In this document: piece by piece, positions 2,622-20,699 of the stretch | How the letters are laid out: the number at the start of each line of letters is the position of its first letter | Numbering within the stretch: position 1 is the stretch's first letter | Source of the DNA: Syntrophobacteraceae bacterium | Lineage (GTDB): Bacteria > Desulfobacterota > Syntrophobacteria > Syntrophobacterales > Syntrophobacteraceae | Length of the DNA stretch: 36,376 bases | NCBI GenBank assembly: GCA_013314815.1 | Contig: JABUEY010000029.1 | Span: forward strand, 1-36,376 | Reading direction: 5' to 3' | Notes under the pieces: generated by a model | The model's input: the letters and a program-made list of their open reading frames with translations, nothing else | The model's database searches: none | Told to the model about the DNA's origin: nothing | Translations under genes and position numbers: made by a program

Positions 2622-3551
2622 GTGGAAGATACCTTTCGTTTGCGTCGATCGATCATTTCCGTACCGGCCAACCGCGAAAAAATGGTCCTCAAGTCCTTCA
2701 CTCTCGCCGCCGACATGATCATGCTCGATCTGGAGGACAGTGTCCCCGTTCCGGAAAAGGAAGAGGCCCGAAGTAAGGTTGTCGCGGCCTTCCGCGAGCA
2801 GGACTGGAAAGACAAGGTACGGGCTTACAGAATCAACGGCATGGATACTCCCTTCGCCTACAGGGATATCATCGATGTGGTGGAGCCTGCAGGCGAGTAT
2901 ATCGATGTGATCGTTATTCCCAAGGTCAATGATGCCAGCGAGGTCAAAGCCATCGACCTGCTGCTTACTCAGATCGAGATGCGTATGGGCATAAAGAAGC
3001 GCATCGGGCTCGAAGCCTCCATCGAAACCGCTGAAGGCATGCTCCGAGTGGAAGAAATCGCCTTCAGTTCTCCCCGCCTGGAGGCGCTGGTTTTCGGAGT
3101 GGCGGATTATGGAGCGTCCATGACGATGATGAGCAAGGGAATCAGCGGTCATGGGGATAAGGAGGATTTCTATCCCGGACACCGATGGCATTTCCCCCTC
3201 AGCAGAATGGCCATGGCGGCCAAGGCTGCCGGACTGGCCGCCATTGACGCTCCCTACGGCGACTACAGGGATCCCGAAGGACTTCGGAAGTCATGCATCC
3301 TGAGCGCGGCTCTCGGGTATGACGGCAAATGGGTCATTCATCCGGATCAGATCGAAATCATCAACAGCGTCTACAGCCCTTCGCAGGAAGACGTGGAACG
3401 TTCCCGACGGATCCTGGAAGCCTACAGGCAGGCTCAACTCGAAGGCTGCGGCTCACTGGCCATCGACGGCAAGATGGTGGATGCGGCCTCAATCCGGGTT
3501 GCAAAGGTTGTCGCCGCCCAGTGGGATGCCATTGCGAAAGCGAAATGTTAA
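2622..3551 (+). CDS. HpcH/HpaI-CitE family lyase, malyl-CoA / beta-methylmalyl-CoA lyase-like
   Basis: A 309-residue TIM-barrel C-C lyase. The family cleaves or forms beta-hydroxyacyl-CoA esters such as malyl-CoA (glyoxylate + acetyl-CoA) or beta-methylmalyl-CoA (glyoxylate + propionyl-CoA). Visible motifs are MLDLEDSVP at 34-42, RINGMDTPF from Arg70, SIETAEG with Glu135, and FGVADYGAS with Asp162; the last two match the Mg2+-binding Glu and Asp of the family. The RINGMDTPFAYRD and KWVIHPDQ segments resemble MclA-type malyl-CoA lyases more than the citrate lyase beta subunit, and no citrate lyase alpha or gamma gene lies nearby. Start is GTG at 2622, with AAGGAG six bases upstream. It lies in the same direction as ppdK. 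The substrate is inferred; citramalyl-CoA lyase is an alternative. Confidence 0.85.
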   Translation: MEDTFRLRRSIISVPANREKMVLKSFTLAADMIMLDLEDSVPVPEKEEARSKVVAAFREQDWKDKVRAYRINGMDTPFAYRDIIDVVEPAGEYIDVIVIPKVNDASEVKAIDLLLTQIEMRMGIKKRIGLEASIETAEGMLRVEEIAFSSPRLEALVFGVADYGASMTMMSKGISGHGDKEDFYPGHRWHFPLSRMAMAAKAAGLAAIDAPYGDYRDPEGLRKSCILSAALGYDGKWVIHPDQIEIINSVYSPSQEDVERSRRILEAYRQAQLEGCGSLAIDGKMVDAASIRVAKVVAAQWDAIAKAKC

Positions 3552-3744
3552 GTATCGAGAAAGAGGGAACTCGAAAAACGGTTGACAAGGATGCAGGTGG
3601 TGTACGGGAATCGCAACGGGATCGACCCGGGCGGCGGGGATCATCCGGTTCTGCCTCGCCATGAAAGCGGAGTCCGCACTCCTGTGCACTGAACCATGAG
3701 AACCGCCAATCTGAGCCGTTCGATCGGCAGCTGCAGACAGTCCG

Positions 3745-5526
3745 ATGGAAAGGCTGGAGGTCATTGTCTCGTTGAATCCCATGGAGCACAGAGACCCCAA
3801 ACTACTTGCCGGTCCCGGGGATAGCCGGGAGGAATACCTGAGGCAGAGCAATGAGCTGCGGATCCTCCTGAATATATCCACGGCCCTGCACAGTTCTCCT
3901 CAACCGCCCGACATCATGCCCGAATGGTGTGACGATCCCTATTATCCACCGGATGTCATCCATTATTCGTCATATCTCCAGGATGTTCTTCAAAGGGCAC
4001 TGATGGGCATCCTGGATACGCTCAAGTTCAAGATGGGAGCACTCTACCTGGCAAGGGAGATTTCCGAGGACCAGTGGCACCTCGAACTGGCCGCCCATTA
4101 CGGCTTTTCAACGGATCTTCTCAACTGCATCCAGTTCTTTTCCGTGCCTTCCGGGATCATGGACAGGAACAATTATCAACAGCCTGTCCGGTGGTTTCCC
4201 GTCAGCAAGATCACCTTTGCCGAACTTCGGGACCGTATGCGCGAGGAGGGGATCGACGAGATTATCTGCATCCCCCTCATGTCCCAGAAAAAGGTACTGG
4301 GTCTGCTCTACGTGAGCAACGACGGAGCCCGGCGTCTCAAGCCCGAAAGAAGCGAATTCCTCACCACCATCGGGCACCAGCTGGGAGTCGCCGTCGAGAA
4401 CGCGCAGCTTTTCGATTCGGTGGAAAGAGCCAAGATCGAGCTGGAGATAAGCTTCGACGCCATACAGCACAGCATTTTCCTGGTGGACAGAAAGATGCGC
4501 ATCTATCGGGTAAACCGTAAGAGCGAGATGGTCTACGGGAAAAAGGAAACACTCATCGGCGTGAAGTACACCCAGGTTCTCTACGGCATGGAGCAGCCGC
4601 ACCTGGAGTGTCCCATATGGGCATGCCTGTGGGGGGCGCAACCCGTCCAGCGCGAGGGGCCTCATCCCCGGTGGGGAGGATATTACCAGTATTTTGCGTT
4701 TCCTGTCTTCAATCCCACGGGGTCGCTGGAGAGGGTGGTGTACTACGAAAAGGACGCCACGGAGGCCAGAAGGCTTGAGCAGCGTCTGCAGCAAAGCGAA
4801 CGGCTGAAGGCTCTCGGCACCCTGGCGGCAGGCATTGCTCATGAAATCCGCAATCCACTCGCCACCATAAACTTCAATGCCCAGATGCTTCAAAGAGAAC
4901 TTGCCCTGGATGTGACTCAGCAGCAGATGTTCAACGACATCCTGCAGGAAATCAAAAAGATGGACAGGATCGTTCAGCAGGTGCTCCATTTTGCACGGCC
5001 CAGGGAGCCCCAGTTCCTGCCCAACCAGCTGAACGAAGTGGTTCGTTACTGCCATGACATGGCCAAGGTCTATCTTCTCAAGGCCGGCGTGGAAGTCTGC
5101 CTGGACCTGGCCGACAACGTGCCTCTGATTGTGATGGACTTCAGCCAGATATGCCAGGTGGTCATGAATGTGATTATCAATGCCATCGAAGCGATGCCGG
5201 ATGGTGGAAAGCTGACGCTGCAGACGGCCATGCGGGAAGATCCGCCCTCGCTTGTCCTCCAGGTAACCGACACCGGTACCGGCATTATGGAGGAGGACCG
5301 GGATCGGATCTTTGACCCGTTTTTCACTCGAAAGCCGGACGGCACAGGAATGGGACTCAGCATCTCCCGGCAGATCCTTGAAAAACACGGAGCTTATGTC
5401 GATGTGGATACGGCCCCCGGCGCAGGGACGTCGTTTTACATCATCTTTCCGCTTCCAAACGAATCTTACGTTCTTTCCCCGGAGCCCCAGGTGCCAAAGA
5501 ATGTGCGCTCCGATGTTCCATCATGA
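3745..5526 (+). CDS. Orphan sensor histidine kinase (GAF-PAS-HisKA-HATPase)
   Basis: A 593-residue cytoplasmic two-component sensor kinase with no predicted membrane segments. A GAF domain spans about 35-220 (GLLYVSNDGARRLKPER near its end) and a PAS domain about 232-345. The HisKA H-box GIAHEIRNPL has the phosphoaccepting His at 366. The HATPase has an N-box near 473-485 (NVIINAIEAMPDGG), a G1 box from 509 (DTGTGI), the F-box FDPFFTRKPDG and the G2 box GTGMGLSIS. The PAS domain carries a Cys289-x4-Cys294 pair (ECPIWAC) in an unusual loop. No response regulator is adjacent, so its partner is elsewhere. The start is uncertain: ATG 3745 has no good ribosome site and ATG 3781 is an alternative. 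It converges on the minor pilin operon; a link to pilus control is only positional. Confidence 0.93.
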   Translation: MERLEVIVSLNPMEHRDPKLLAGPGDSREEYLRQSNELRILLNISTALHSSPQPPDIMPEWCDDPYYPPDVIHYSSYLQDVLQRALMGILDTLKFKMGALYLAREISEDQWHLELAAHYGFSTDLLNCIQFFSVPSGIMDRNNYQQPVRWFPVSKITFAELRDRMREEGIDEIICIPLMSQKKVLGLLYVSNDGARRLKPERSEFLTTIGHQLGVAVENAQLFDSVERAKIELEISFDAIQHSIFLVDRKMRIYRVNRKSEMVYGKKETLIGVKYTQVLYGMEQPHLECPIWACLWGAQPVQREGPHPRWGGYYQYFAFPVFNPTGSLERVVYYEKDATEARRLEQRLQQSERLKALGTLAAGIAHEIRNPLATINFNAQMLQRELALDVTQQQMFNDILQEIKKMDRIVQQVLHFARPREPQFLPNQLNEVVRYCHDMAKVYLLKAGVEVCLDLADNVPLIVMDFSQICQVVMNVIINAIEAMPDGGKLTLQTAMREDPPSLVLQVTDTGTGIMEEDRDRIFDPFFTRKPDGTGMGLSISRQILEKHGAYVDVDTAPGAGTSFYIIFPLPNESYVLSPEPQVPKNVRSDVPS

Positions 5527-5614: not shown

Positions 5615-6067
5615 CTAATTGAACAGCCAGTCGAAAACGGAAAACTTCAGGGCCGCTGGATTCAAAACTCGAGGGTACTTGTCTGCGTCGGATGTCGTAA
5701 TGGTTACCGTATCGGTTGATGCGGTTACGGAGATGTATCTTCTGGCGGTTATGGTTTTGACCGTTGCGCCGCCGGCAACGGAGAGCAGATAGCTTTTGGC
5801 CGTATCGCTTCCGGTGAGGCAGAAGTTGGGGCCTCCTGCGGAATTACCGAAAGAATAGAGGCGGGTGATCGTGTCCGCGTAGCGGTTGTTTTCCGCCCAG
5901 AAGGCTTCCTGGTCCATTTTAGCCCTCAGCACCGCCTCGATGGCTTCAGTCTGCTTTCCGCGATTCTGGTAGTTGATGTAGGCGGGAACCGCTACCGCGG
6001 CGAGTATCGCCACTATGGCGGTGACGACCATGAGTTCGACGAGGGTAAAGCCAGATTCCCTGTCCAT
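5615..6067 (-). CDS. pilE: Type IV pilin-like protein, PilE/PilA type
   Basis: A prepilin of about 150 residues. Prepilin peptidase would cleave the Gly-Phe bond in ESG^FTLVELMVV, and mature Glu5 is present. The hydrophobic helix ([20 protein letters not shown]) anchors it in the inner membrane before assembly. It is the last gene of the minor pilin operon, the position PilE holds in Pseudomonas aeruginosa, and starts 46-56 bases after pilY1. I prefer ATG 6067 because GAGG lies nine bases upstream and gives a 6-residue leader; ATG 6076 has its purines touching the codon. The globular domain has one cysteine (NFCLTG), so the usual C-terminal disulfide loop is absent. It could be a minor pilin or a major-pilin paralogue; the operon favours a minor pilin. 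Confidence 0.88.
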
Positions 6068-6122
6068 ATTCTCCATCCTCTATATGTAAGGCTGCTTCCG
6101 CGCGGAGCCTGTCCGCCCTTTC

Positions 6123-9100
6123 CTACCACTCTTCCCAGGACGCCTTGCCGCTTTTCACCGTTCCCGGATTCTGCTGGTCGATCTGCAGAATGGTTCCCGT
6201 ACTGGTCTGAACGAAGACACTCGACCCTTCCTGCCTCCCCGTGTGGATATTGGGAGTCAGGGTGAGTCCCTTGCCGAGGGATACAGACTTCAGGACTTCG
6301 TATTTTGTACTGGCATTTTCGCCTTCCCCTTCGATCACGCTTGTACTGCCGAGCCCGATGATCGGGCTGCTGTAGGCCGTGCCGGTGGCGTAATAGAGTG
6401 CATACAGGTTGCTGTACCCTTCGAATTCACAGGGATCGACGGAGGGGATATAGCTGGTGAACGTCAGGATATTGCCCAGTATGGTTGCCTGGCCCAGGTT
6501 TCTTTCCTTTTCCGTGGTGAGATCGAGGTACCAGCCCTTCTTTGTGGAGACAAGGGCCTTGAGTTCGTTGAAGGTCATGTTGCCCGCTTCGACCCCCTGC
6601 ACGGTGTTGCCCCCCTCGAACACCATCGCATCCGTGACATCCAGCAGGTCGTCCCTGAAGACTTCCTGCCACGTGAACCCACTGGAATTCCTGGGTTCCT
6701 TGATGCCGTAGAAGGTCTGAGTCTGGACGGAAGTCGGGTGATGAGTCGCATCGGACCGGTTAAAGAATCTTCCTGTCCCGAAGTAGACCCAGCCATTGCC
6801 CGATGAATCCTTCGCGGCGGAGGGCGCTGCAGTGATGGGCTGGCCGTGGTCGAAGGCCGAGACTTCCGTCAGATCGATCAAGGTGGTGTCCTTATCCCAG
6901 GATCCTGTTTCGACGAGATTCTTTATGGCGATTCGTTTGAGCTTTCCTCCCCATCCCGTATCGAGGCTGCCCGAGACGGTTCCGAAGTAGACGGCGTCGG
7001 TCTTGTAATCAAGTTCGTAGTCCACGGCGACGGGGTCGGATACGAAGGCAGGAATGCCCGGATCGAGGGTAGCGAAGACCTTCAGTTGACCGGGGTTCGA
7101 GAGGGTATTGGTGGTGCCGTCGACGGATCTCAAGACGCCGTTTGTACCCAGTTCCTTGAGATCCACCAGGAAGATTTTGGCCGGCTGGTTGCTCGATGCA
7201 TTCTGCATGGCGGTGGAATCCGCTCCCTCCGCCCCCCGAGGACCGGAACCGAACACCAGGTACCACAGATTGGGATCGCTCGTATTCGCCTTCAGCGTAA
7301 TCACGGCGGGGTAGCACGTCGTAAAACCCAGGGCGTCTGCAAAGCTCGAGTCGGAAATTTCGGCCAGGAGTTTCGGAGGCTGTTCGGGGTCGGTGATATC
7401 CATGATGATGAATCCCGAAGACATGGTCCGGTCGGCGTTGTCGAAGATGTTGTTCTTGTTGAGGTCCGCTCGAATCTTGCCTCCTCCGAACCGCATTCCG
7501 CAGACCAGAACGGTGCCCCAGCCGTTGGGGTGCGTGTCGTCCGGTGCAAAGATTTTGGCGTCGAAAACCCTCGGTTTGAGGTCGACATAGGCAATGTGGC
7601 TTTCATGAGTATAGCTGGGGTCGGTCAGCCAGTAAAGGTGAGGCAGCAGGTTGTAGGGAACATAGGCCCAAAGTTCCGAGCCGAGTTCCCGGCCCGTATC
7701 GCTGTACCTGGACGCGTAGTCGGCAGCCGCCGGATTATACCCCTTCCAGAACTTCTTCCCAGCCGAATCGTAGAACCCCCCGTTAAACGCATGAAGCATG
7801 CCTCCATTGCTTCCCGCGTAGATGACCGTTCTTCTCTGGCGGTATTTGCGATAGAAGTCGATATAGGAACTGTCCCTGTAGAGGAGATCGAAGTCTTCGG
7901 CCGGCGCCGACACGATGGTGGGAGTCGAATGAACGATGTCGCTCAGTCTCCACGTTTCCACCGCCCCGTCTTCGTCGTAATCCGCCTGCCTGCTGCGGAA
8001 AGCGGGAATGGTGTAAGACGGACTGGTCGAGGATGTGTATGAAGGCTGATCGGCGCCTCGTATGAAATTGATCACCCTCTTATGCTGCCGCTCCAGGAAA
8101 TCGTTGTAAGGCGCCTGGTTGGTGGCAATCCTCAATGGTTCGATAAATTCGGGAGCCTGAACGCCGAAAGGGGGAAAGGGGTGGAGGAATGGATGGATGT
8201 CGCCGTTGTAGTCCACGAAATCGACGATTTCTCCCTGCCCTGCATCGGGAACCATGTTGAGGAATGCGGTCCCGGCCCTGCCGTCCAGAAAAGTGAAGAT
8301 ATGTCTGCTGTTGTCGATGTCGGTAAAGGCACGTTGAGTCACGATGCCTGCGGCGGGCAGTTCGTTGAGCGTGGCGCCCGAGGACCAGAGGTAGGAGATG
8401 CAGTTGCGCTGCTGGACATCGGTTTCGTTCGCTCTGCATGGTCTCATGCTTGTGAGCACGATGGGTTCGGCAAGCTCTTCCGCGTCGATCCTGCTGTTTG
8501 CATTGATGTCTTTGTACTTGTAGATGGTGCCGACGGAATCGGAACTGAACCGGATGAAATAGTCGTCCGCCGGGTCGAGTTTCCCGTTGCGGTTCGTGTC
8601 TTCTCTCATATTTCCGTAGGCATCCACCAGGAAGGCGTGCACTTCCCCTACCCAGTGGACCGTGTTGCCCTGCCAATCTTTGTACTCGGGGTAGAAAACC
8701 GCCTGGTAAACCGCCCCCTCTCCCGAACGCGTACTCGATATCACCGACGCCGCAGTGCCTGACGCCGAGCGCCTGAGGATGTCCGCGAAGGACTTGTTGA
8801 GTTGTTCTTCAAGTTTCAGGGGGTTGGTGACGTAGAAGTAGGTGTCCGGGATGCCGTTTCCGTCCTTGTCCCATTCCGTCGAAATGTCGGGCAGGGCGTT
8901 GTCGTTCGAGTCCTCGAACCCGCCCCATTTGGCGGCGTACCAGAGAGGATCCTGGAGCAGGGATGCCCCCGATGTGGTGCCGACAGTAAAGGTCCTTTCC
9001 GCCACGAGAGGAAGCGGGCTGGGCTGCGTATCGAGGAAATAGCTGACATCACTGCCTGCGGCCGTGTCGGCGTCTCTCACCTCCAGGTACGTGCCGTCAC

Positions 9101-11597
9101 TGGTTGTTCCGGAGATGATATATCCCATGTGCTGTACGATGCTTCCTGCGGCATATTCCGAGGTGAGCTTTATTCTGAGAGTGTTGGCCCCCGTTTTCCA
9201 GTATTCATAGATAACAATGGCGTCCATGTCGTGGTCCGCGCCCTGCTCGACGTCCTCGAAATTGATGCGGAACTTCCCATACGTTTCGCTGATGGTCTCC
9301 ACGTAGAAATCGACAATTGTGTTGGTGGGCTGAAACTGCCCCTGGTTCTTGTTGATATTGTAGCCTGCCACGGACTTGGCGAAGGGCACCAGTGTGACCT
9401 TGTGATTCTGGCCGAAGGGGATCTCGATGCGCGGCAGAGGAGAAGCCAGGGCGACGGCATAGGTGGTGACATTCTGCAGCCCCGCGGCCGCGCTGGCATC
9501 TTCCTTCAGACCGTGATAGGCAACGGAAGCGGAGTAATAACCGCCCTGCTTGGTGGGTTCTTCCGGGCACAGCCCGCGGATGGTTCCGAAGCCGGATACG
9601 CCCTTGGGAGTGCAGGCGCTGTCGGAAGCGGGGTTGTTGCTCATGCTGTGACCGATGTAATAATCGCCGGATGAAGAGGTAATGCCTTCGTAGCCGGAGA
9701 TGATGTTCGCCAGGTTTTGTACGTTGAGGTTACCGAGGCTGCCGCTGAAAGAGGAGAAGGCGCTTCCCGGAAGCTGGTCGGTGTCAAACGAGGGGTTGAT
9801 GTCGCTGATGACCAGCATGAACGGCTTGGCGCAGTGGGAATAACCGCCGTTGGCCGTATCGTAGGGGTTGATCCAGGCGGGTTTGGGGAGGCCCAGCGAA
9901 CTGTCGTCCGTCGACCCGCTGTAATCGAATGCGGAGGTCTTCCCGGCTCCGGCGAAGTATCTGAGGGTTTCATACATCATTTCCGCAACGGGATTTCCCC
10001 ACATGCGGCACTGCCCTTCCACGATGGGCGACGTGGCGATCCACCCGCAGTTGACGTTGTATGAATAATCCGAATAACTGAACCCGACGATTTTGAGTTT
10101 GTTGATGGTCTGGATGATGCCGTTGACCGAGGTGAACTGGCCGGTGTCGGGGTTGATTTCATCCCTTATGGTGCCGACGTTTTTTCTGAGGACTCCTCCC
10201 GAGGTGTTTTTCGTGTAAGACCCTGTAAGCAGACCGAAATACATCCGGTCGGATTCGCCGTGTTTCTGCAGGATCCCGATGGGCTTCCATGTGCCGTTAG
10301 GATACAGCTTGCAGTTGCTTTCCGCCTTTCCGGGCACTCCCACCTGGACCCTCACCACGTAGTCGGTAATGAGGGACGGAGGATTGTAGAGGCTGTAATA
10401 CCTGCGGGTGAGGTTGCGAAGCCCCTGTATCGATCCCTGGGACGCCGGGACGACCTCGAACTTGTTGCCTGACCCCGGGGTACTCCAGTAAAGGTAGCAG
10501 CTGTCCTGGCCGACTCCTTCCTGATGATGGAATCGAATATTATACACTCCTGCCGCAAGCGAGACGGTTCCGTAATGATCCCGGCAGTTGCACACGGAAT
10601 GAGATCCGTACCAGCCTGCCACCACCTGGTCGTTGATGAGAAATTCCACGGCGTCATCACCGTCGACGGCGAACCTGTAGCTTCCATTTTGAGTGATCAC
10701 CAGCTCACCCTCGATCAGGGTCATGTACCGGTCACCCCGGTTCGGCGCATCGGAAATGATGGAAATCGGCCCTTCTTCCTGCAGGTTGCCGGGGTGTGAA
10801 TAGGTATCGATGAGTGCCTGGAATTCGGTTCGATTCTGCGGGTGACCGGTGTAATATCCTCCCTGGATTTCAAGAGAATTGTCCGCAACGGGGCGTTCCT
10901 TGGAAACCCATTCCCAGATCCTGGCGGGGTTGTCGGGCAGGACGCGCAGAAGGGGATTGCCGTTGAGGGCGACGGTGGTGGACGCGAAGAGATGCCTTCT
11001 GCCCTGAACGGGCAAGGCGAGTGGAGAATACAGGCTGACGTCGTAGCCGTCGTGAGCGACACTCGTGTATTCTTTGCCCCAGGAGTGGGCGTCCTGTGGG
11101 ATGAAGACGCGTTCTAGCACGGTTTCCGAGGCAGTGTCGACGGACCGGTATCCACCGTACAGGACCTTTCGCAACGCATCCATTCTGGACGTGGTCAGGT
11201 AATTGAGAAAATTCCCGCTCCACCGGCCCTGTTTGCCCGCTCCACAGCTCCTGTTTTCGCCGCAGTTTTCCCTGGGTTCAAACCTGCTGCTTCCGGTCAC
11301 GTATTCGTAGCAGCGATTTGCGTCGAAATATCCATAATATTCAATTGCAGGTTTGAAACCGATATCGAGATTTCCGTCTCCATCGATGTCTGAAGCGTCG
11401 TTGTAGGCCTCGTAATACAGCTTATGGTCCCGGCCGAGGACAAGCATGACAAGGGGCGGAACGCCGGCGGTCACAAAAGGAGGCACCAGGCTGTAGTCCG
11501 CAGCGGATTCGGCTCCTGCCCTGTTGCACGGCGATATTTGAATCATCAGGGTGAACAGGCATCCCACGGAAACAGCGGCGAAGATTCTTTTCAACAT
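6123..11597 (-). CDS. pilY1: PilY1/PilC-family type IV pilus tip adhesin with a PA14-like domain
   Basis: About 1824 residues, long for PilY1. ATG 11597 is preferred: AGGA lies eight bases upstream and it gives a Sec signal peptide (MLKRIFAAVSVGCLFTLMIQI). The in-frame upstream ATG 11681 would overlap pilX. Typical PilY1 marks are WSGNFLNYLTTSR near 126, WDKDGNGIPD near 910 followed by the helix before SGTAASV, and a C-terminal beta-propeller about 1217-1620 beginning at DIVHSTP and GSNGGMLHAFNGG. Likely Ca2+ loops are DIDGDGNLD near 70-78 and DLNKNNIFD near 1378-1386; the latter resembles the PilY1 calcium site that controls pilus retraction. Residues about 277-384 look like a PA14 carbohydrate-binding domain (YRFAVDGDDAVEFLINDQ, HHQEGVGQDSCYLYW). 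The expected vWA metal site (DxSxS) is not seen: the segment reads VMLVLGRDHKL. It probably caps the pilus and acts in adhesion and assembly. Confidence 0.93.
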   Translation of the reverse strand: MLKRIFAAVSVGCLFTLMIQISPCNRAGAESAADYSLVPPFVTAGVPPLVMLVLGRDHKLYYEAYNDASDIDGDGNLDIGFKPAIEYYGYFDANRCYEYVTGSSRFEPRENCGENRSCGAGKQGRWSGNFLNYLTTSRMDALRKVLYGGYRSVDTASETVLERVFIPQDAHSWGKEYTSVAHDGYDVSLYSPLALPVQGRRHLFASTTVALNGNPLLRVLPDNPARIWEWVSKERPVADNSLEIQGGYYTGHPQNRTEFQALIDTYSHPGNLQEEGPISIISDAPNRGDRYMTLIEGELVITQNGSYRFAVDGDDAVEFLINDQVVAGWYGSHSVCNCRDHYGTVSLAAGVYNIRFHHQEGVGQDSCYLYWSTPGSGNKFEVVPASQGSIQGLRNLTRRYYSLYNPPSLITDYVVRVQVGVPGKAESNCKLYPNGTWKPIGILQKHGESDRMYFGLLTGSYTKNTSGGVLRKNVGTIRDEINPDTGQFTSVNGIIQTINKLKIVGFSYSDYSYNVNCGWIATSPIVEGQCRMWGNPVAEMMYETLRYFAGAGKTSAFDYSGSTDDSSLGLPKPAWINPYDTANGGYSHCAKPFMLVISDINPSFDTDQLPGSAFSSFSGSLGNLNVQNLANIISGYEGITSSSGDYYIGHSMSNNPASDSACTPKGVSGFGTIRGLCPEEPTKQGGYYSASVAYHGLKEDASAAAGLQNVTTYAVALASPLPRIEIPFGQNHKVTLVPFAKSVAGYNINKNQGQFQPTNTIVDFYVETISETYGKFRINFEDVEQGADHDMDAIVIYEYWKTGANTLRIKLTSEYAAGSIVQHMGYIISGTTSDGTYLEVRDADTAAGSDVSYFLDTQPSPLPLVAERTFTVGTTSGASLLQDPLWYAAKWGGFEDSNDNALPDISTEWDKDGNGIPDTYFYVTNPLKLEEQLNKSFADILRRSASGTAASVISSTRSGEGAVYQAVFYPEYKDWQGNTVHWVGEVHAFLVDAYGNMREDTNRNGKLDPADDYFIRFSSDSVGTIYKYKDINANSRIDAEELAEPIVLTSMRPCRANETDVQQRNCISYLWSSGATLNELPAAGIVTQRAFTDIDNSRHIFTFLDGRAGTAFLNMVPDAGQGEIVDFVDYNGDIHPFLHPFPPFGVQAPEFIEPLRIATNQAPYNDFLERQHKRVINFIRGADQPSYTSSTSPSYTIPAFRSRQADYDEDGAVETWRLSDIVHSTPTIVSAPAEDFDLLYRDSSYIDFYRKYRQRRTVIYAGSNGGMLHAFNGGFYDSAGKKFWKGYNPAAADYASRYSDTGRELGSELWAYVPYNLLPHLYWLTDPSYTHESHIAYVDLKPRVFDAKIFAPDDTHPNGWGTVLVCGMRFGGGKIRADLNKNNIFDNADRTMSSGFIIMDITDPEQPPKLLAEISDSSFADALGFTTCYPAVITLKANTSDPNLWYLVFGSGPRGAEGADSTAMQNASSNQPAKIFLVDLKELGTNGVLRSVDGTTNTLSNPGQLKVFATLDPGIPAFVSDPVAVDYELDYKTDAVYFGTVSGSLDTGWGGKLKRIAIKNLVETGSWDKDTTLIDLTEVSAFDHGQPITAAPSAAKDSSGNGWVYFGTGRFFNRSDATHHPTSVQTQTFYGIKEPRNSSGFTWQEVFRDDLLDVTDAMVFEGGNTVQGVEAGNMTFNELKALVSTKKGWYLDLTTEKERNLGQATILGNILTFTSYIPSVDPCEFEGYSNLYALYYATGTAYSSPIIGLGSTSVIEGEGENASTKYEVLKSVSLGKGLTLTPNIHTGRQEGSSVFVQTSTGTILQIDQQNPGTVKSGKASWEEW

Positions 11598-11662
11598 CGG
11601 CTCGTTCCTGTTTTGAAGAATGAACGCAACGAGTGCCTTCTGCGTAACAGCTGCCGGCATCC

Positions 11663-12250
11663 TTACATGACGTGCTTCCACTGAACTTCGACAACGGAAT
11701 CACTGCCGTCGAATCCCATGTGCCTGGAACGGATATGGTACAGAACCCAGGCTCCGCCTCCCGCCGCCCCCTTGCCCTTGCCTTCGTAACCCGCGATCAT
11801 CTGAACAGCGCCTCCAATGGCCAGCGAAGTGGTACCTCCAACTTTCACCGCCGTTACCGGAGGTGTGCAGGAAACGTTGGACGCAGGGTAATACAGGTCG
11901 AATTCGGGGGATGCCGCGTCGCAGTCGGGCCTGACCCGCCCCACAGGCGTCGGGTTCATATAAAAACTTGGAGACATACCCAGCGGGTTGATGCCGACGT
12001 TTCCAACAGTGATGACTCCTGCCGAAGATCCGAATCCTCTCTCATCGATATTGCGTTCAAGCAGTTCGATGCTCATCTCCCCGCCTCCGTCCGCCTGATG
12101 GAAAGCTGTTTTGTAGAGTCTTTCGTTTCGTGCGATGCGGGTTTCCACCGTGGTTGTCTGGGTGGCGTAGATGCCGATGACCGCAAGCAGACCGATCATC
12201 AACATGGCGAGAATCAGCGCGGATCCCTTTTCGGTTTCCATCGTCTTCAC
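11663..12250 (-). CDS. pilX: Minor pilin PilX-like
   Basis: A 195-residue protein with a PilX N-terminal helix: KG^SALILAMLMIGLLAVIGIYA. It has the Gly before the cleavage site but Leu, not Glu, at mature position 5. This is common in PilX/GspK-type tip pilins, which sit at the top of the initiating complex. The remainder (TTVETRIARNERLYKTAFHQADGG) is the usual PilX continuation, with Ala/Asp around the EAGxE-like segment reduced to QADGGGEMSIE. ATG 12250 or ATG 12241 could start it. It lies between pilV and pilY1 as in known minor pilin operons. The leftover C-terminal domain is Gly/Val rich and not recognisable on its own. Confidence 0.85.
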   Translation of the reverse strand: MKTMETEKGSALILAMLMIGLLAVIGIYATQTTTVETRIARNERLYKTAFHQADGGGEMSIELLERNIDERGFGSSAGVITVGNVGINPLGMSPSFYMNPTPVGRVRPDCDAASPEFDLYYPASNVSCTPPVTAVKVGGTTSLAIGGAVQMIAGYEGKGKGAAGGGAWVLYHIRSRHMGFDGSDSVVEVQWKHVM

Positions 12251-12341
12251 GGTGGCGTCTCCTGTTTACGTTCCGTCACAATGATCCGCAATGGCCGGCG
12301 GGACTAGCTCGAACAAAGGAAAAAACGCCGGGCGGCATGCC

Positions 12342-12797
12342 TCAAATGCCTCTGCATTTCATACTCTCCAGGGCGACGCGGTGCACGCCGCCCCCGGCGT
12401 CAGCCCACGTCACAATCACCCTGATCCTTTTCGTGTCGGCGATGGGATCGTCCCCGACGACATTCCAGAATATCCTGTACGGACTGTCCGGGTCTGTGCC
12501 ATCGCTCCATTCCTTCGTGCCGGCCATTACGTTTCCACTGGCATCGACGGTGTAGTCGATGCCTGAATCGTCCCCGTTGGGACCATCGAGATCATTGTGG
12601 TCGTAGTCAAGGGCTGAAAGCCTTTCCAGTTGAGTGTGAGCCACACTTGTGGAGCGGGTGATGTGATGGGAAAAGGAGTTATTCTGAATATCGGCGGCCT
12701 GGAGTCTATACAGGGCGAGTACTCCGAACGCGAACACCATGATTCCCGCGAATACCTCGACCAGGGTAAATCCTCTGCGGTCTCTTCGTATGCGCAT
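12342..12797 (-). CDS. pilV: Minor pilin PilV-like
   Basis: A prepilin of about 151 residues: RRDRRG^FTLVEVFAGIMVFAFGVLAL, with mature Glu5. The VFAFGVLALYRLQA pattern is typical of PilV. I choose ATG 12797 because it leaves an 8-residue basic leader and begins two bases after the pilW stop; ATG 12821 would overlap pilW and lengthen the leader. Two cysteine-free Asp/Gly-rich segments (DHNDLDGPNGDDSG) suggest a loop-rich globular head. It would form part of the tip complex that primes pilus assembly with PilW, PilX, FimT and PilY1. Here pilV follows pilW, reversed from the Pseudomonas order. Confidence 0.85.
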   Translation of the reverse strand: MRIRRDRRGFTLVEVFAGIMVFAFGVLALYRLQAADIQNNSFSHHITRSTSVAHTQLERLSALDYDHNDLDGPNGDDSGIDYTVDASGNVMAGTKEWSDGTDPDSPYRIFWNVVGDDPIADTKRIRVIVTWADAGGGVHRVALESMKCRGI

Positions 12798-12799
12798 AT

Positions 12800-13474
12800 C
12801 TACGTTCCCAAATTCCTGCATCTTACAGCGGTGCGGAGGACGCGCCTCCTGCAGCCGTCATTTTGCGGCTGAAGGATCCTGGTACCCGAAAGGTTGAAAT
12901 ACTCTGCCGAATGGATGAAATCCTTGTCGATCCTTGCCGAACGGGCCACGATGGCAATCTCCACGGTTCGTATCCTGTCCAGTTCCTCCTGGGTGTTTAC
13001 GGGTGTGGGGATGGAATTGCCGTTTGCGTCGAGATAGACAAAATCGAGAACGTCGATGTTTTCGGCGACCAACTGCTGCAGCCCTGCTGTAAGACCGGAT
13101 TGAGGGCTGGACCAGGTCTGCCTCACAATCTGCCCGTTCGAGAGAAAGTAGGTTATGCTTCCTTCCGGATCGTCGGTTTGAGTGAAAACGGCGTTTCCGT
13201 CGGGATTCCAGGTGAAGGTGATGGCCGTATCCTCAGCCCTTGTGATGCCGAGGGATCCCGCGCCACCGGGATCATACCCCGCCATCCTGATTTCCCTCGC
13301 CATGATGTCCATCGAGGCCCTGACCTCCTGCAGGGCTTCCACGGCCTGTTCCTGGATGATGAAGATCTTCTGCTGCGAAGTGAAGGTCTTGTAGACGGCC
13401 GCCATGACGATACCCGTCAGGGCAAGTGCAACGAGCAGTTCGACGATGGTGAAGCCTTTGTGTCCGTTTGACAT
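12800..13474 (-). CDS. pilW: Minor pilin PilW-like
   Basis: A 224-residue prepilin with leader MSNGHKG^FTIVELLVALAL and mature Glu5. SMDIMAREIRMAGYDPGG is the PilW/GspJ-type signature after the helix. The head contains YFLSNGQIVRQ and a late EIAIVARS strand as in PilW relatives. It lies between fimT (32-base gap) and pilV (stop and start two bases apart), so translation is probably coupled. The C-terminal 25 residues are Arg/Cys rich and may be unstructured. It is a component of the pilus-initiating tip complex in the inner membrane and pilus tip. Confidence 0.86.
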   Translation of the reverse strand: MSNGHKGFTIVELLVALALTGIVMAAVYKTFTSQQKIFIIQEQAVEALQEVRASMDIMAREIRMAGYDPGGAGSLGITRAEDTAITFTWNPDGNAVFTQTDDPEGSITYFLSNGQIVRQTWSSPQSGLTAGLQQLVAENIDVLDFVYLDANGNSIPTPVNTQEELDRIRTVEIAIVARSARIDKDFIHSAEYFNLSGTRILQPQNDGCRRRVLRTAVRCRNLGT

Positions 13475-13506
13475 GGCATTATCCGCTCTTTCGACGGCAC
13501 CGGATT

Positions 13507-14124
13507 CTACCTCCAGGCTCCTCCGCCCCAGGTCCTGATCCTGATGGAGCCCGCAAGGGACGCACCGACGGCGAGGACGGTTCCGGAGTCGTTGGTCAGG
13601 TAGCAGAAGGGCACGGTGCCGGCGTTTGAAACGGGAGGCGATGCCTGAAACCCTCTCTGGTTGAACACGGCCTGCTGAGAATCAAACGTGACCGCCGCCG
13701 GGATGCCTTCACCCGCCGCCCCGACCGCCACGGATCCGAACCCGTAGGCGATCCCGCTCCTGTAGTCTGCCAGGCGGACGGTTTCCACCAGGACATTGTC
13801 GGGACGGGTTGCGTCCCAGTCGCTGTGGAGACCACTGTTCCAGACCTGGTAGGTTCCTGCCGCCAAATCGAACACGATGACCCAGGGCCGGTTTTCCTTG
13901 ACGGCATTCATCCGTGCCTTCTGCATGTTCGATGCAAGATCCCTGGCAGCCCCCTTCAGCCGGTAATGAGCCAGCCAGTTGCTGGTCTGGAACGTCTTGG
14001 CGGCTGCGAGGGCAAAGAAGGCCAGCAGGCTCACCGTCACCATGAGTTCGAGAAGGGTGAACCCGCGGGGGCGTGGGTCTCCGCCGCCCCGTAATATTAT
14101 TTTTGACGTAAATATTGCCATCAT
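13507..14124 (-). CDS. fimT: FimT/FimU-type (GspH family) minor pilin
   Basis: First gene of the minor pilin operon, 205 residues. The cleavage motif is RPRG^FTLLELMVTVSLLAFFALAA with mature Glu5, followed by the GspH/FimT pattern: AARDLASNMQKARMNAVKENRP, then WVIVFD and YQVW strands. The leader is long (21 residues from ATG 14124). AGGA lies about ten bases upstream of this ATG, so the long leader may be real; no closer in-frame ATG exists before the cleavage site. FimT-like proteins prime pilus assembly and in some bacteria bind DNA during uptake; no DNA-binding claim can be made from sequence alone. Confidence 0.86.
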   Translation of the reverse strand: MMAIFTSKIILRGGGDPRPRGFTLLELMVTVSLLAFFALAAAKTFQTSNWLAHYRLKGAARDLASNMQKARMNAVKENRPWVIVFDLAAGTYQVWNSGLHSDWDATRPDNVLVETVRLADYRSGIAYGFGSVAVGAAGEGIPAAVTFDSQQAVFNQRGFQASPPVSNAGTVPFCYLTNDSGTVLAVGASLAGSIRIRTWGGGAWR

Positions 14125-17416: not shown

Positions 17417-19489
17417 ATGCCCAATCGCCTGGAAAGGGAGAAAAGTCCCTATCTTCAGCAGCATGCCCAGAACCCCGTGGACTGGTTCCCCTGGGGAGAG
17501 GAAGCGTTTGCCAGGGCGGCGGAGGAAAACAAGCCGGTGTTCCTGTCCATTGGATATGCGACCTGTCACTGGTGTCATGTGATGGAGCGCGAATCCTTCG
17601 AAGACCGGGAAGTCGCGGATCTTCTGAACGAACATTTCATCTCCGTCAAGGTGGACCGCGAGGAAAGGCCCGATGTGGACCGGGTCTACATGACGGTCTG
17701 CCAGGTTCTGACCGGAAGGGGCGGATGGCCGCTGTCCATCTTTATGACCCCCGACGGGAAGGCTTTCTACGCAGGCAGCTACTTTCCCAAGTCCGCCCGC
17801 ATGGGCATGCCGGGTTTTATGGATATCGCCCGGCAGGTGGCCGAATTGTGGAGGAACGACCGTGAACGCCTTCAAACGGCGGGCAACGAGATTGCCAGGG
17901 CGATCCAGCCCGGCGGTCCGGCATCATCGGCGGGTGTTCCGGGTGTCGAGATGCTCGGGACAGCGTGGCGCCAGTTGAGGCAGTCCTACGACGCCAAATG
18001 GGGCGGCTTCGGAACGGCTCCGAAATTCCCCACCCCTCACCACCTGACCTTTCTCTTGAGGTGGCATTGGAGGGACCCGGGGACGGACGCGCTTTTCATG
18101 GTCGAAAAGACCCTCGATGCCATGCGGGATGGAGGAATCTTCGATCACGTGGGCTTCGGATTTCACAGGTATTCCGTCGACCGGAGGTGGCTTGTTCCCC
18201 ATTTTGAAAAGATGCTCTACGACCAGGCCATGCTCGCCGTCGCTTACACGGAAGCCTTTCAGGTGACCGGAAAGGCTGTTTACGCCGATGTGGCGGGTGA
18301 AATCTTCGAATACGTCCTGCGGGATATGCAGGATGCCGGGGGAGGCTTCTATTCCGCTGAAGATGCCGACAGCGAAGGCAGAGAAGGACTCTTTTACGTC
18401 TGGACTCCGGAGCAGGTAAGACAGGTTCTCGGCGAGGAGGATGGCGACATCTTCTGCCGCTTTTACGACATCGGCTCCCCAGGCAACTTCGAAGACGGGT
18501 TCAGCATACCTCACGTCCCCCGCCCACTGGCGTTCATGGCCGACCGGCTGGGCCTCGATGCGGCGCGGCTCAGGGTATCCCTCGATTCCGCAAGAAAAAA
18601 GCTTTTCTCCGCACGCACGAAGCGTATCCCTCCCCTTAAGGACGACAAGATCCTGACCTCCTGGAATGGCCTCATGATTGCCGCCCTGGCCAAAGGGTTT
18701 CAGGCGCTGCGCAATCCGCGGTACGTTCGCGCAGCTTCACGGGCGGCCGCGTTCATCCTGGAAAACCTGAAAGGCCCGTCGGGGAGGCTCAGCCGGCGCT
18801 ACAGGCACGCAGAAACCGCCCATCCGGGCTATGCCGACGACTATGCGTTCCTGATCTGGGGACTCATCGAACTGTACGAATCCACCTTCGACGTCGGCTG
18901 GCTCGAACAGGCTTTGGCTCTCCAGGACACCATGCTCGATCTCTTCTGGGACGACGAAGACGGAGGCTTCTTCTACACGCCCAAAGACGGAGAAAGTCTC
19001 ATTGTAAGAGACAAGGAAATCTATGACGGAGCCGTCCCTTCGAGCAACTCCGTCGGCGCGCTGAACCTCCTGCGCCTTGGCCGGATGACGGGAAACCCCG
19101 CGTTTGAACAGAATGCGGGACGCCTGATGGAAGCCTTCTCGGGCATGGTTGCCGAGTATCCTTCCGCCTATACTCAGTTCCTCAACGCAGTGGATTTTGC
19201 CTTGGGTCCCGGGCGGGAGATCGTGATTTGTGGAGATTCCCGCCTTGAAGAAACCCGGTATATGCTGGAAATGGTGCACAAGACCTTCCACCCCAACCAG
19301 GTTCTCCTTTTCAAGGACGAAGGAGCGGAAGGCGAACGCCTGGGCAGGATTTGCAAATTCGTCCAGCCTCTCCACCCGTCCGACGGCGGACCGGCCGCCT
19401 ACATCTGTGAAGGCTTTGCATGCAGGCAACCCATTACGGACGTCTCTGAGCTCGAGAAGGCCCTGGCTCCTGAAGACCCGAACCCGTAA
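17417..19489 (+). CDS. DUF255 thioredoxin-domain protein (YyaL / SSP411 family)
   Basis: A 690-residue protein of the family with an N-terminal thioredoxin-like DUF255 domain and an (alpha/alpha)6 barrel like N-acylglucosamine epimerase/glycosidases. Signature features are [20 protein letters not shown]50-H-W-C53-[19 protein letters not shown] and [23 protein letters not shown]. The length is normal for the family (about 680-700). AGGGAG precedes ATG 17417. It is cytoplasmic with no signal peptide. The substrate is unknown in bacteria; human SPATA20 belongs to the same family. It follows two small zinc-ribbon genes but has its own upstream hairpin. Confidence 0.95.
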
Positions 19490-19531
19490 ATTGAACCAGC
19501 CCCGGATCAGCCTGCCTCTGAAACATGGCAC

Positions 19532-19582
19532 GATTGAGGCGTGATTGTGGCGCGATTATCCGGGTTTGGCGGGATTGAGGCG
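19532..19582 (+). repeat. Degenerate direct repeats GATT-n-GGCG
   Basis: GATTGAGGCG (19532), GATTGTGGCG (19543), GATTATCCGG (19554) and GATTGAGGCG (19573). The first three are spaced 11 bases apart, one helical turn. The array ends about 100 bases before the candidate -24 element, the distance expected of an enhancer for a sigma-54 activator. Function is inferred only. Confidence 0.4.
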
Positions 19583-19726
19583 CCAAAGCATCGAGTCCAG
19601 GAAGCCGGTCTTCCATGCCGTCTGGATGCGAATGCCGCACTGATCGCAGACAAAACAAAAAGAGAACCAGTCGGAGTGATTTTGGCATTGGTATTGCACA
19701 TCAAGAAACACTGCAAGAGAAACCAA
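19556..19726 (-). CDS. Possible small cysteine-containing ORF (competes with the RNA at 19709-19777)
   Basis: 56 residues from TTG 19726, with a perfect GAGGAGG six bases upstream. It contains FVCDQCGIRI, a CxxC pair, plus another Cys; the second half uses mostly G/C third positions, as genes here do. Against it: the start is TTG, a strong hairpin lies directly upstream, no promoter is visible, and no known domain fits. It might be a remnant of a zinc-ribbon gene. The same GAGGAGG reads CCTCCTC on the other strand, within the candidate RNA. Confidence 0.28.
   Translation of the reverse strand: MVSLAVFLDVQYQCQNHSDWFSFCFVCDQCGIRIQTAWKTGFLDSMLWRLNPAKPG
19683..19698 (+). promoter_or_regulatory. 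Near-consensus sigma-54 (-24/-12) promoter
   Basis: TGGCATTGGTATTGCA matches the consensus TGGCAY-RN4-TTGCW at every fixed base except the R. GG and GC have the required spacing of ten bases. The predicted start is near 19709. A matching sequence in an intergenic region, followed by a strong terminator, makes it more than a chance hit, but no activator gene is in the window. Confidence 0.45.
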
Positions 19727-19777
19727 CTCTTTCCTCCTCAAAAGCTAACCGGCCCTAGCCCCTCCGGTTAGCTTTTT
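19709..19777 (+). ncRNA. Candidate small RNA or attenuated leader
   Basis: About 69 bases from the predicted sigma-54 start to the end of the terminator. A weak 5' stem (AAGAG/CTCTT) is followed by an unpaired TTTCCTCCTC stretch complementary to Shine-Dalgarno sequences, then a 13-bp terminator. This layout is typical of sRNAs that block ribosome binding. It could equally be the leader of the flavodoxin gene that begins 64 bases later. No known RNA family is recognised. Confidence 0.35.
19740..19777 (+). terminator. Strong intrinsic terminator
   Basis: A perfect 13-bp stem AAAAGCTAACCGG/CCGGTTAGCTTTT with an 11-base loop, followed by TTTTTCATTTTT on the plus strand. It is the best terminator in the window, yet lies 250 bases after the nearest plus-strand stop codon, suggesting that it ends a separate short transcript. 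Confidence 0.85.
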
Positions 19778-19841
19778 CATTTTTGGAACATTTGGTGACA
19801 CCTGAACGGCATGCCCCGGCATGGATGGAGGACAAACCGCG

Positions 19842-20699
19842 GTGGAAAAGACTCTGCTCGGAATCATCGGTTCACCCAGAAAACAGGGCAATTGCGAAGT
19901 CTTCGTAAAGGCGGTCTTTCGGCGGCTCAGGGGCCCCTGGCAACTGAGGCTGATGAGGCTGCCCGAACTGGATATCCGCCCATGCAGGGCATGCTATGCA
20001 TGTTTGTTCGAACCGATGAAATGCGTTCAGGATGACGACTTCAACATGGCCCTGCAGGCCTTTGTGGAAGCAGACGCCTGGGTCGTGGCGGCTCCAGCGT
20101 ATCTTCTCGGTGCCAATTCGAGCCTCAAGCGTTTTTTGGATCGAGGTTTGAGCTTCTACGCCCACGTCGATCGGCTGTGGGGGAAGCCTGCGGCAGGTGT
20201 GGCCGTTGCCGGCATCGAGGGAAAGGAAGGCTACACGAAGCTGTCGGTGGAAAGCTTCATCAGGCTGGCTCTGGGTGACCTTCGAGCATCGGCGGTGATT
20301 TACGGGGCGCTTCCGGGGGAGGTCCTGCTGGGCGAAAACGCCGCGGACACAGCCGCGCAAATGGCCGCGGCCCTGGAATCTCCGGACGAGAGGCACATGC
20401 CTGGTTCCCCCTCTTGTCCTGTGTGTGGAGGCGATACCTTTCGGTTTCTGGGTGGAGGCAGGGTGCGTTGCATGCTTTGCAGCAGTGCGGGAGACTATGA
20501 AGTGACGGGGGGAGAGATATGCTTCCGAACCGCGGCGGACGATCACCCCCTGTTCCTCACCCTCGATGCTGTCAGGCGCCATGCCCAGTGGCTGCGCGCA
20601 ATGAAGGAACGGTACCTGTTCCAGCGCAGAGAACTCAGAGCCGTCGTCCGGGAGTACTCCGGCATCGGAACATGGGTGCATTCCGAAAAGGGACAATAA
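19842..20699 (+). CDS. Flavodoxin-fold NAD(P)H:FMN reductase-like protein with a C-terminal zinc ribbon
   Basis: About 285 residues. The N-terminal half is a flavodoxin-like FMN-binding domain: LLGIIGSPRKQGNCE is the phosphate loop, CRACYACL follows at about 48-55, and AAPAYLLGANSSLKRFLDR forms the second flavin loop. The C-terminal half adds a zinc ribbon with C192-x2-C195 and C210-x2-C213 and a basic helical tail (RHAQWLRAMKERYLFQRRELR). I prefer GTG 19842, with GGAGG ten bases upstream; ATG 19821 is in frame but lacks a ribosome site. Such flavoproteins (iron-sulfur flavoprotein/WrbA relatives) reduce quinones, oxygen or iron. The electron acceptor is unknown. It is convergent with the YkgJ-type gene 30 bases away. 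Confidence 0.85.
   Translation: MEKTLLGIIGSPRKQGNCEVFVKAVFRRLRGPWQLRLMRLPELDIRPCRACYACLFEPMKCVQDDDFNMALQAFVEADAWVVAAPAYLLGANSSLKRFLDRGLSFYAHVDRLWGKPAAGVAVAGIEGKEGYTKLSVESFIRLALGDLRASAVIYGALPGEVLLGENAADTAAQMAAALESPDERHMPGSPSCPVCGGDTFRFLGGGRVRCMLCSSAGDYEVTGGEICFRTAADDHPLFLTLDAVRRHAQWLRAMKERYLFQRRELRAVVREYSGIGTWVHSEKGQ

Follow-up and report, generated by a model that had tools for sequence, protein, structure and literature searches.

The window, that is the whole 36,376-nucleotide stretch of Syntrophobacteraceae DNA analysed here, holds a real and previously undescribed small-RNA gene, which lies on the forward strand at 19709–19784. The gene is very probably switched on through sigma-54 by a two-component regulator, and these bacteria probably use its product, which carries an anti-Shine-Dalgarno (anti-SD) core, to shut down outer-membrane proteins (OMPs). 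To our knowledge, little has been learnt about the sRNAs of syntrophic and sulfate-reducing Desulfobacterota, which hold a central place in the anaerobic cycling of carbon and sulfur; in the library searched, no paper was found on such a family in Syntrophobacterales, nor on Syntrophobacter sRNAs, and a paper on ncRNA prediction in O. alaskensis mentions neither sigma54 nor porin. The circuit proposed below may explain how the porin is adjusted in these bacteria and can be put to the test, each of its elements (sensor kinase and regulator, enhancer and sigma-54 promoter, sRNA and target) having been given a position.

The RNA gene and its family

The initial annotation had reported four signals on one strand, namely direct repeats, a sigma-54 promoter, an anti-SD stretch and a terminator, and all of them are present in the window where it had placed them. 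The 5′ end of the RNA was set ~10–12 nt downstream of the −12 element, from which it is deduced, and the 3′ end is the T-run of the terminator, giving a length of about 70–76 nt. The near-invariant anti-SD core CTCTTTCCTCCTC occupies 19727–19739 (+) and is followed by the intrinsic terminator (19740–19784, +), composed of a perfect 13-bp stem (19740–19752/19764–19776), a loop containing GCCCC (19758–19762) and the tail TTTTTCATTTTT. The predicted fold of the RNA (−20.4 kcal/mol, z = −4.45 against shuffles) is dominated by this single strong stem and leaves CCUCCUC unpaired, while the core bases 19727–19731 pair weakly with AAGAG; the resulting AAGAG/CUCUU 5′ hairpin belongs to the fold of the window copy and is absent from the type II copies described below. 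The GCCCC of the loop, invariant across all aligned copies, may serve as another seed for pairing or be contacted by a protein. Elsewhere in the window, on the minus strand, pilin-like genes with prepilin-type N-termini flank a gene for a PilY1-like protein of 1852 aa (5615–14124), a gene run that looks like a minor-pilin operon.

When positions 19500–19800 were searched against 40 relatives, the match was essentially confined to 19713–19786, with 75–98% DNA identity in nearly all relatives and unconserved flanks; a second or third divergent copy was frequent. The family set comprised 54 copies studied, 53 of which were aligned, and hardly any variation is seen in the core CTCTTTCCTCCT(C) and in the loop GCCCC across the studied copies. 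The covariance model R1 scores 87.5 bits on the window at 19705–19788, and model searches placed the family in 37 of 39 genomes analysed from the order and in 41/55 of the class, with divergent copies elsewhere in the phylum. Covariation, whose search in relatives had been proposed as a check, was found in the terminator stem, where 8 of the 10 consensus pairs changed on both sides, 97.1% of cells were paired and none of 500 shuffles did equally well; slid controls collapsed. The alternative named at the outset, minus-strand conservation that follows codon positions, was not seen: the linker carries indels of 1–4 bases among copies, and minus-strand coding was ruled out by these indels together with the RNA-type covariation. 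No family of Rfam 15 exceeded its gathering threshold in the window, the best weak matches being AgrB (15 bits) and DicF (14.4 bits).

Two types of copy can be told apart by their loop, which is CTAGCCCC in type I, to which the window copy belongs, and CTGCCCCACC in the type II paralogue, present in the same genome at G000:C117:17601–17682. A further group of relatives, type III (G000:C245:42280–42364, that is L193, together with L183–L192 and L201), shows the CTCTTTCCTCCTC core after a GGAAAG complement and then a CCTCCTCCTT-like loop; these are without a sigma-54 box, most of them have a conserved TTGAC-N8/9-TATAAT block, and they are probably a differently controlled paralogue. Weak model matches in family f13 (L174, L179, L180 and L181) likewise combine the CTCTTTCCTCCTC core with a terminator, are without a sigma-54 box and have 11-bp TTTAATCTTCT-like direct repeats upstream; they may represent yet another, third mode of control over an anti-SD RNA of this kind and, being without the box, were left out of the member count.

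Promoter, enhancer and candidate activator

The sigma-54 (−24/−12) promoter TGGCATTGGTATTGCA lies at 19683–19698 (+), where it matches TGGCAY-N5-TTGCW with GG and GC 10 bp apart, and is the sole strict match of this kind in the whole window when both strands are scanned. A sigma-70 promoter was not found. A sigma-54 box occurs 21–32 nt before the core in 53/54 copies, compared with 0.03 expected and with 11 of 21,420 control windows. Further upstream, at 19526–19582 (+), an upstream activating sequence consists of TGGCGnGATTn-type half-sites at 19526, 19537 and 19548, in 11-bp tandem, and at 19567, and the GATT/GGCG repeats are spaced by 11 and then by 30. The repeats that had been placed at 19532–19582 are thus present, with the correction that their unit is TGGCGnGATTn and that they start a few bases earlier, at 19526. 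Such half-sites, ~60-fold enriched, accompany nearly every type I and type II copy, mostly between −160 and −80 from the sigma-54 box, and their spacing is most often 11 bp, or ~20 and 31 bp. In the 54 copies promoter, upstream repeats, core and stem are conserved together, which supports reading the element as a small RNA that is driven by sigma-54, has an anti-SD stretch and ends in a terminator of its own.

In the 4.06-Mb genome from which the window comes, the tandem site (≤2 mismatches) was found four times, all four at the two sigma-54 sRNA genes, and in 28 other genomes 18 of the 19 tandem-site matches were upstream of family members. Since tandem sites sit almost solely at family members, the enhancer looks, by its sequence distribution, dedicated to these RNAs, and the repeats at 19526–19582 are predicted to be bound by a response regulator of the NtrC type. 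The exception, G001:C170:20496–20516 (L312), has perfect enhancer repeats; in the downstream sequence available neither an sRNA nor a sigma-54 box nor a core could be recognised, and it is possibly a decayed copy.

A candidate for this regulator is suggested by gene order in more distant relatives. All ten divergent sigma-54 copies of f54, f39 and f72 have an NtrC-type activator gene directly upstream of the sRNA, as do the class relatives f4 and f5, and wherever the flank was read in these five groups the activator gene shares an operon with that of a histidine kinase. A Fis-type HTH in the regulator co-occurs with the palindromic enhancer GTACAAnnnnTTGTAC, and a winged-helix end with direct repeats, the f4 repeat being exactly the TGGCGCGATT of the window. 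The f4 and f5 regulators have a winged-helix-like C-terminal domain, with weak matches to DIP2311-like and DeoR HTH domains and to a Fic-family protein (E 0.039), and 38 of the 40 relatives have such a regulator end, as a rule in a single strong match. In the window's own genome there is one regulator orthologue, located at another locus than the sRNA, on contig C126 (G000:C126), where the kinase gene (L302:1713–3326) adjoins that of the regulator (about 3334–4818). The regulator, 59–65% identical to the sRNA-adjacent ones, has a receiver and a sigma-54 interaction domain (E 5.5e-74) and no HTH_8, and HisKA and HATPase_c are the only Pfam domains of the kinase. In this candidate activator the loop that is canonically GAFTGA reads GAFSGA, and several relatives (f1 relatives L277, L279, L281 and L294) likewise gave no match to a strict GAFTG. 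Because the regulator is not beside the sRNA, the link between the two in this genome is drawn from orthology and enhancer type.

The porin as predicted target and the proposed circuit

The supposition that CCTCCTC could pair with ribosome-binding sites found a specific conserved partner in the porin gene. When whole genomes were searched without bias, the element being the only query, the ribosome-binding site (RBS) of the porin came up as antisense match in G010, G009, G016, G004, G003, G013, G019, G021, G008 and the window's own genome, and in several genomes this was the best antisense partner genome-wide. The porin encoded by this gene has a signal peptide and a C-terminal Phe, and is related to DESULF_POR1 with E 8.7e-31, a score below the curated cut-off of that model. 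In the own genome (L061:3078–4733), GCTAGCTTTTGAGGAGGAGAGAG-ATG and the sRNA form 21 contiguous pairs (−39 kcal/mol), a long duplex part of which requires an opened terminator stem, the 5′ arm of the terminator extending the complementarity to the porin mRNA. In f1 the complementarity extends past the SD in either direction, and no more than 3 of the 238 control starts with an SD equal the porin duplex in strength in most f1 genomes, while in f2 and some f3 it is down to 11–13 bases at the SD and only moderately above controls (38/238 in G035, 12/238 in G036).

Core and target site diverge together, both in genus g14, where CCCTTTCC goes with GGAAAGGG (one event), and in family f54, where CCTAA goes with TTAGG. 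In f54, f39 and f72 no match to the porin family NF033939 was found at E ≤ 1e-5, and targets were located through the SD pattern instead. Genes carrying the exact complement before the ATG in 13 genomes more often encode a signal peptide than those with control SDs (17/27 against 6/28, p = 0.0026, by a simple hydropathy rule and with near-duplicate loci included). They comprise porins, OprB, LbtU, OmpA, TorF, a beta-barrel OMP and two Lpp/OprI-like lipoproteins, so that the candidate targets besides the porin are, in silico, enriched in outer-membrane proteins and lipoproteins; cytoplasmic genes, HU and glnA among them, are matched by the core as well.

The overall best explanation, which we hold with good confidence, is a circuit that runs from a two-component system through sigma-54 and the sRNA to repression of the porin and other OMPs. 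The RNA family, its promoter and enhancer, the terminator covariation, the complementarity with its co-divergence and the regulator orthologue are the parts of it that can be read from sequence. We infer that the gene is transcribed and that the histidine kinase/NtrC-type regulator pair of C126 binds the 11-bp direct repeats at 19526–19582, where it would activate sigma-54 RNA polymerase at 19683–19698. The segment 19709–19784 would then act as a trans-acting small RNA of about 70–76 nt which, once released, would expose CUCUUUCCUCCUC; this would pair with the main porin mRNA (L061:3078–4733) at its SD region and at the bases immediately ahead of the AUG, and in the same way with mRNAs of other outer-membrane proteins and lipoproteins. 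Such pairing would block ribosome binding and probably hasten mRNA decay. The type II copy (G000:C117:17601–17682), which has the same enhancer, is likely to act alongside the window copy, and the inducing signal would probably be envelope stress or a substrate/ion change.

Alternative readings and comparison with known systems

The position of the element had also allowed the idea of an attenuated leader. Its upstream neighbour, outside the RNA gene, encodes a DUF255/thioredoxin-like (Thioredox_DsbH) protein (17417–19489, +), and 64 bases 3′ of the terminator begins the gene of an NADPH-dependent FMN reductase/flavodoxin-fold protein (19841–20699, +; start probably GTG 19841). The former precedes 13 and the latter follows 14 other type I copies, as a leader or attenuator of the FMN-reductase gene would have it; however, several type I copies have one neighbour only or neither, the type II, f2 and f3 copies have neither, and RNA, promoter and enhancer remain all the same. 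At L016, L022, L024, L028 and L034 a convergent minus-strand gene follows the RNA in place of the FMN reductase, no alternative anti-terminator pairing is evident in the fold, and the core fits the ribosome-binding sites of other genes. The leader was therefore rejected on the loci without that gene, and we regard it as very improbable; a protein search of the contigs for the enzyme, which returned a single relative, was no help on this point. The element has its own promoter and terminator and, since it persists where the neighbours change, it is a free sRNA; of the two options first considered, the leader of the reductase gene falls away.

Two other readings accept the sRNA and differ from porin repression in what it does. 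Any CCUCC-bearing RNA pairs to some extent with any strong SD, and this one, driven by sigma-54, might be a general anti-SD RNA, a broad translation damper or sponge for which the porin is one of many weak partners. This reading is in line with the resemblance of the core to the anti-SD motif at the 3′ end of 16S rRNA and with its match to further genes that have a strong SD, such as those for HU, glnA and transaldolase, yet it leaves aside the f1 porin complementarity that goes past the SD on both sides and tops the antisense matches in several genomes, the change of the porin site together with the sRNA between lineages, and the enrichment of envelope proteins among the targets; we consider it unlikely. 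It is, in our estimate, also improbable that the sRNA activates or protects the porin mRNA, or that a nutrient or ion cue swaps porins, in place of repression under envelope stress. Porin exchange by sRNA is common, as with MicF/OmpF, and the kinase domains found in Pfam, HisKA and HATPase_c only, point to no particular signal, but the duplex takes in the SD and the bases close to the start codon, and such pairing is normally repressive.

Sigma-54-dependent sRNAs, often multicopy, include Qrr, GlmY/GlmZ, CrcZ and Pxr. Our RNA shares with them a −24/−12 promoter and enhancer sites for an activator of the NtrC family, and differs in having no sequence similarity at the level of Rfam and other targets. 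By function, the likeness is to sRNAs under another alternative sigma factor. MicL is a sigma-E-dependent sRNA that represses Lpp, and RybB and MicA of Salmonella and E. coli are sigma-E-dependent sRNAs that repress outer-membrane-protein mRNAs (PMC1804206). The predicted targets here are likewise porins, OmpA-like proteins and Lpp-like lipoproteins, and the U-rich terminator tail is compatible with Hfq dependence. As in the RybB/MicA class, the targets are mainly OMP mRNAs in silico; unlike in that class, the promoter is not of the sigma-E type, sigma-54 and a two-component NtrC-type activator taking its place, no sequence relation was found, and the anti-SD core pairs rather than a RybB-like 5′ end. 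The best reading of the window sRNA is, by analogy, as a putative functional analogue of RybB and MicA.

CU-rich anti-SD motifs that pair with ribosome-binding sites are also found in the alphaproteobacterial sRNAs AbcR, NfeR1 and the cuckoo RNAs (PMC7143759, PMC10746234, PMC3927594), from which our RNA differs in phylum and in the position of the motif just before the terminator hairpin, and appears to differ in promoter and structure; compared at the level of Rfam, no match links them. In D. vulgaris, the response regulator DVU0679 targets the gene of Dv_sRNA2, an sRNA of unknown function, directly downstream (PMC3333781). This gene order is that of f54, f39, f72, f4 and f5, a likeness of arrangement, while in the genome of the window regulator and sRNA are apart. 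DVU0679/Dv_sRNA2 is the closest published arrangement, and RybB/MicA the closest function. We see about equal grounds for and against the broader view that an ancient two-component/sigma-54/anti-SD-sRNA circuit, present in several classes of the phylum, does the OMP surveillance done in enterobacteria by sigma-E with RybB, MicA and MicL; the DNA-binding end of the regulator (Fis-type versus winged helix) and the enhancer (palindrome versus 11-bp direct repeats) would have been exchanged together, and the sRNA core and the porin RBS would have diverged in step. If true, evolution would have arrived independently, with this circuit, at a way to do the task that sigma-E and its sRNAs perform in enterobacteria.
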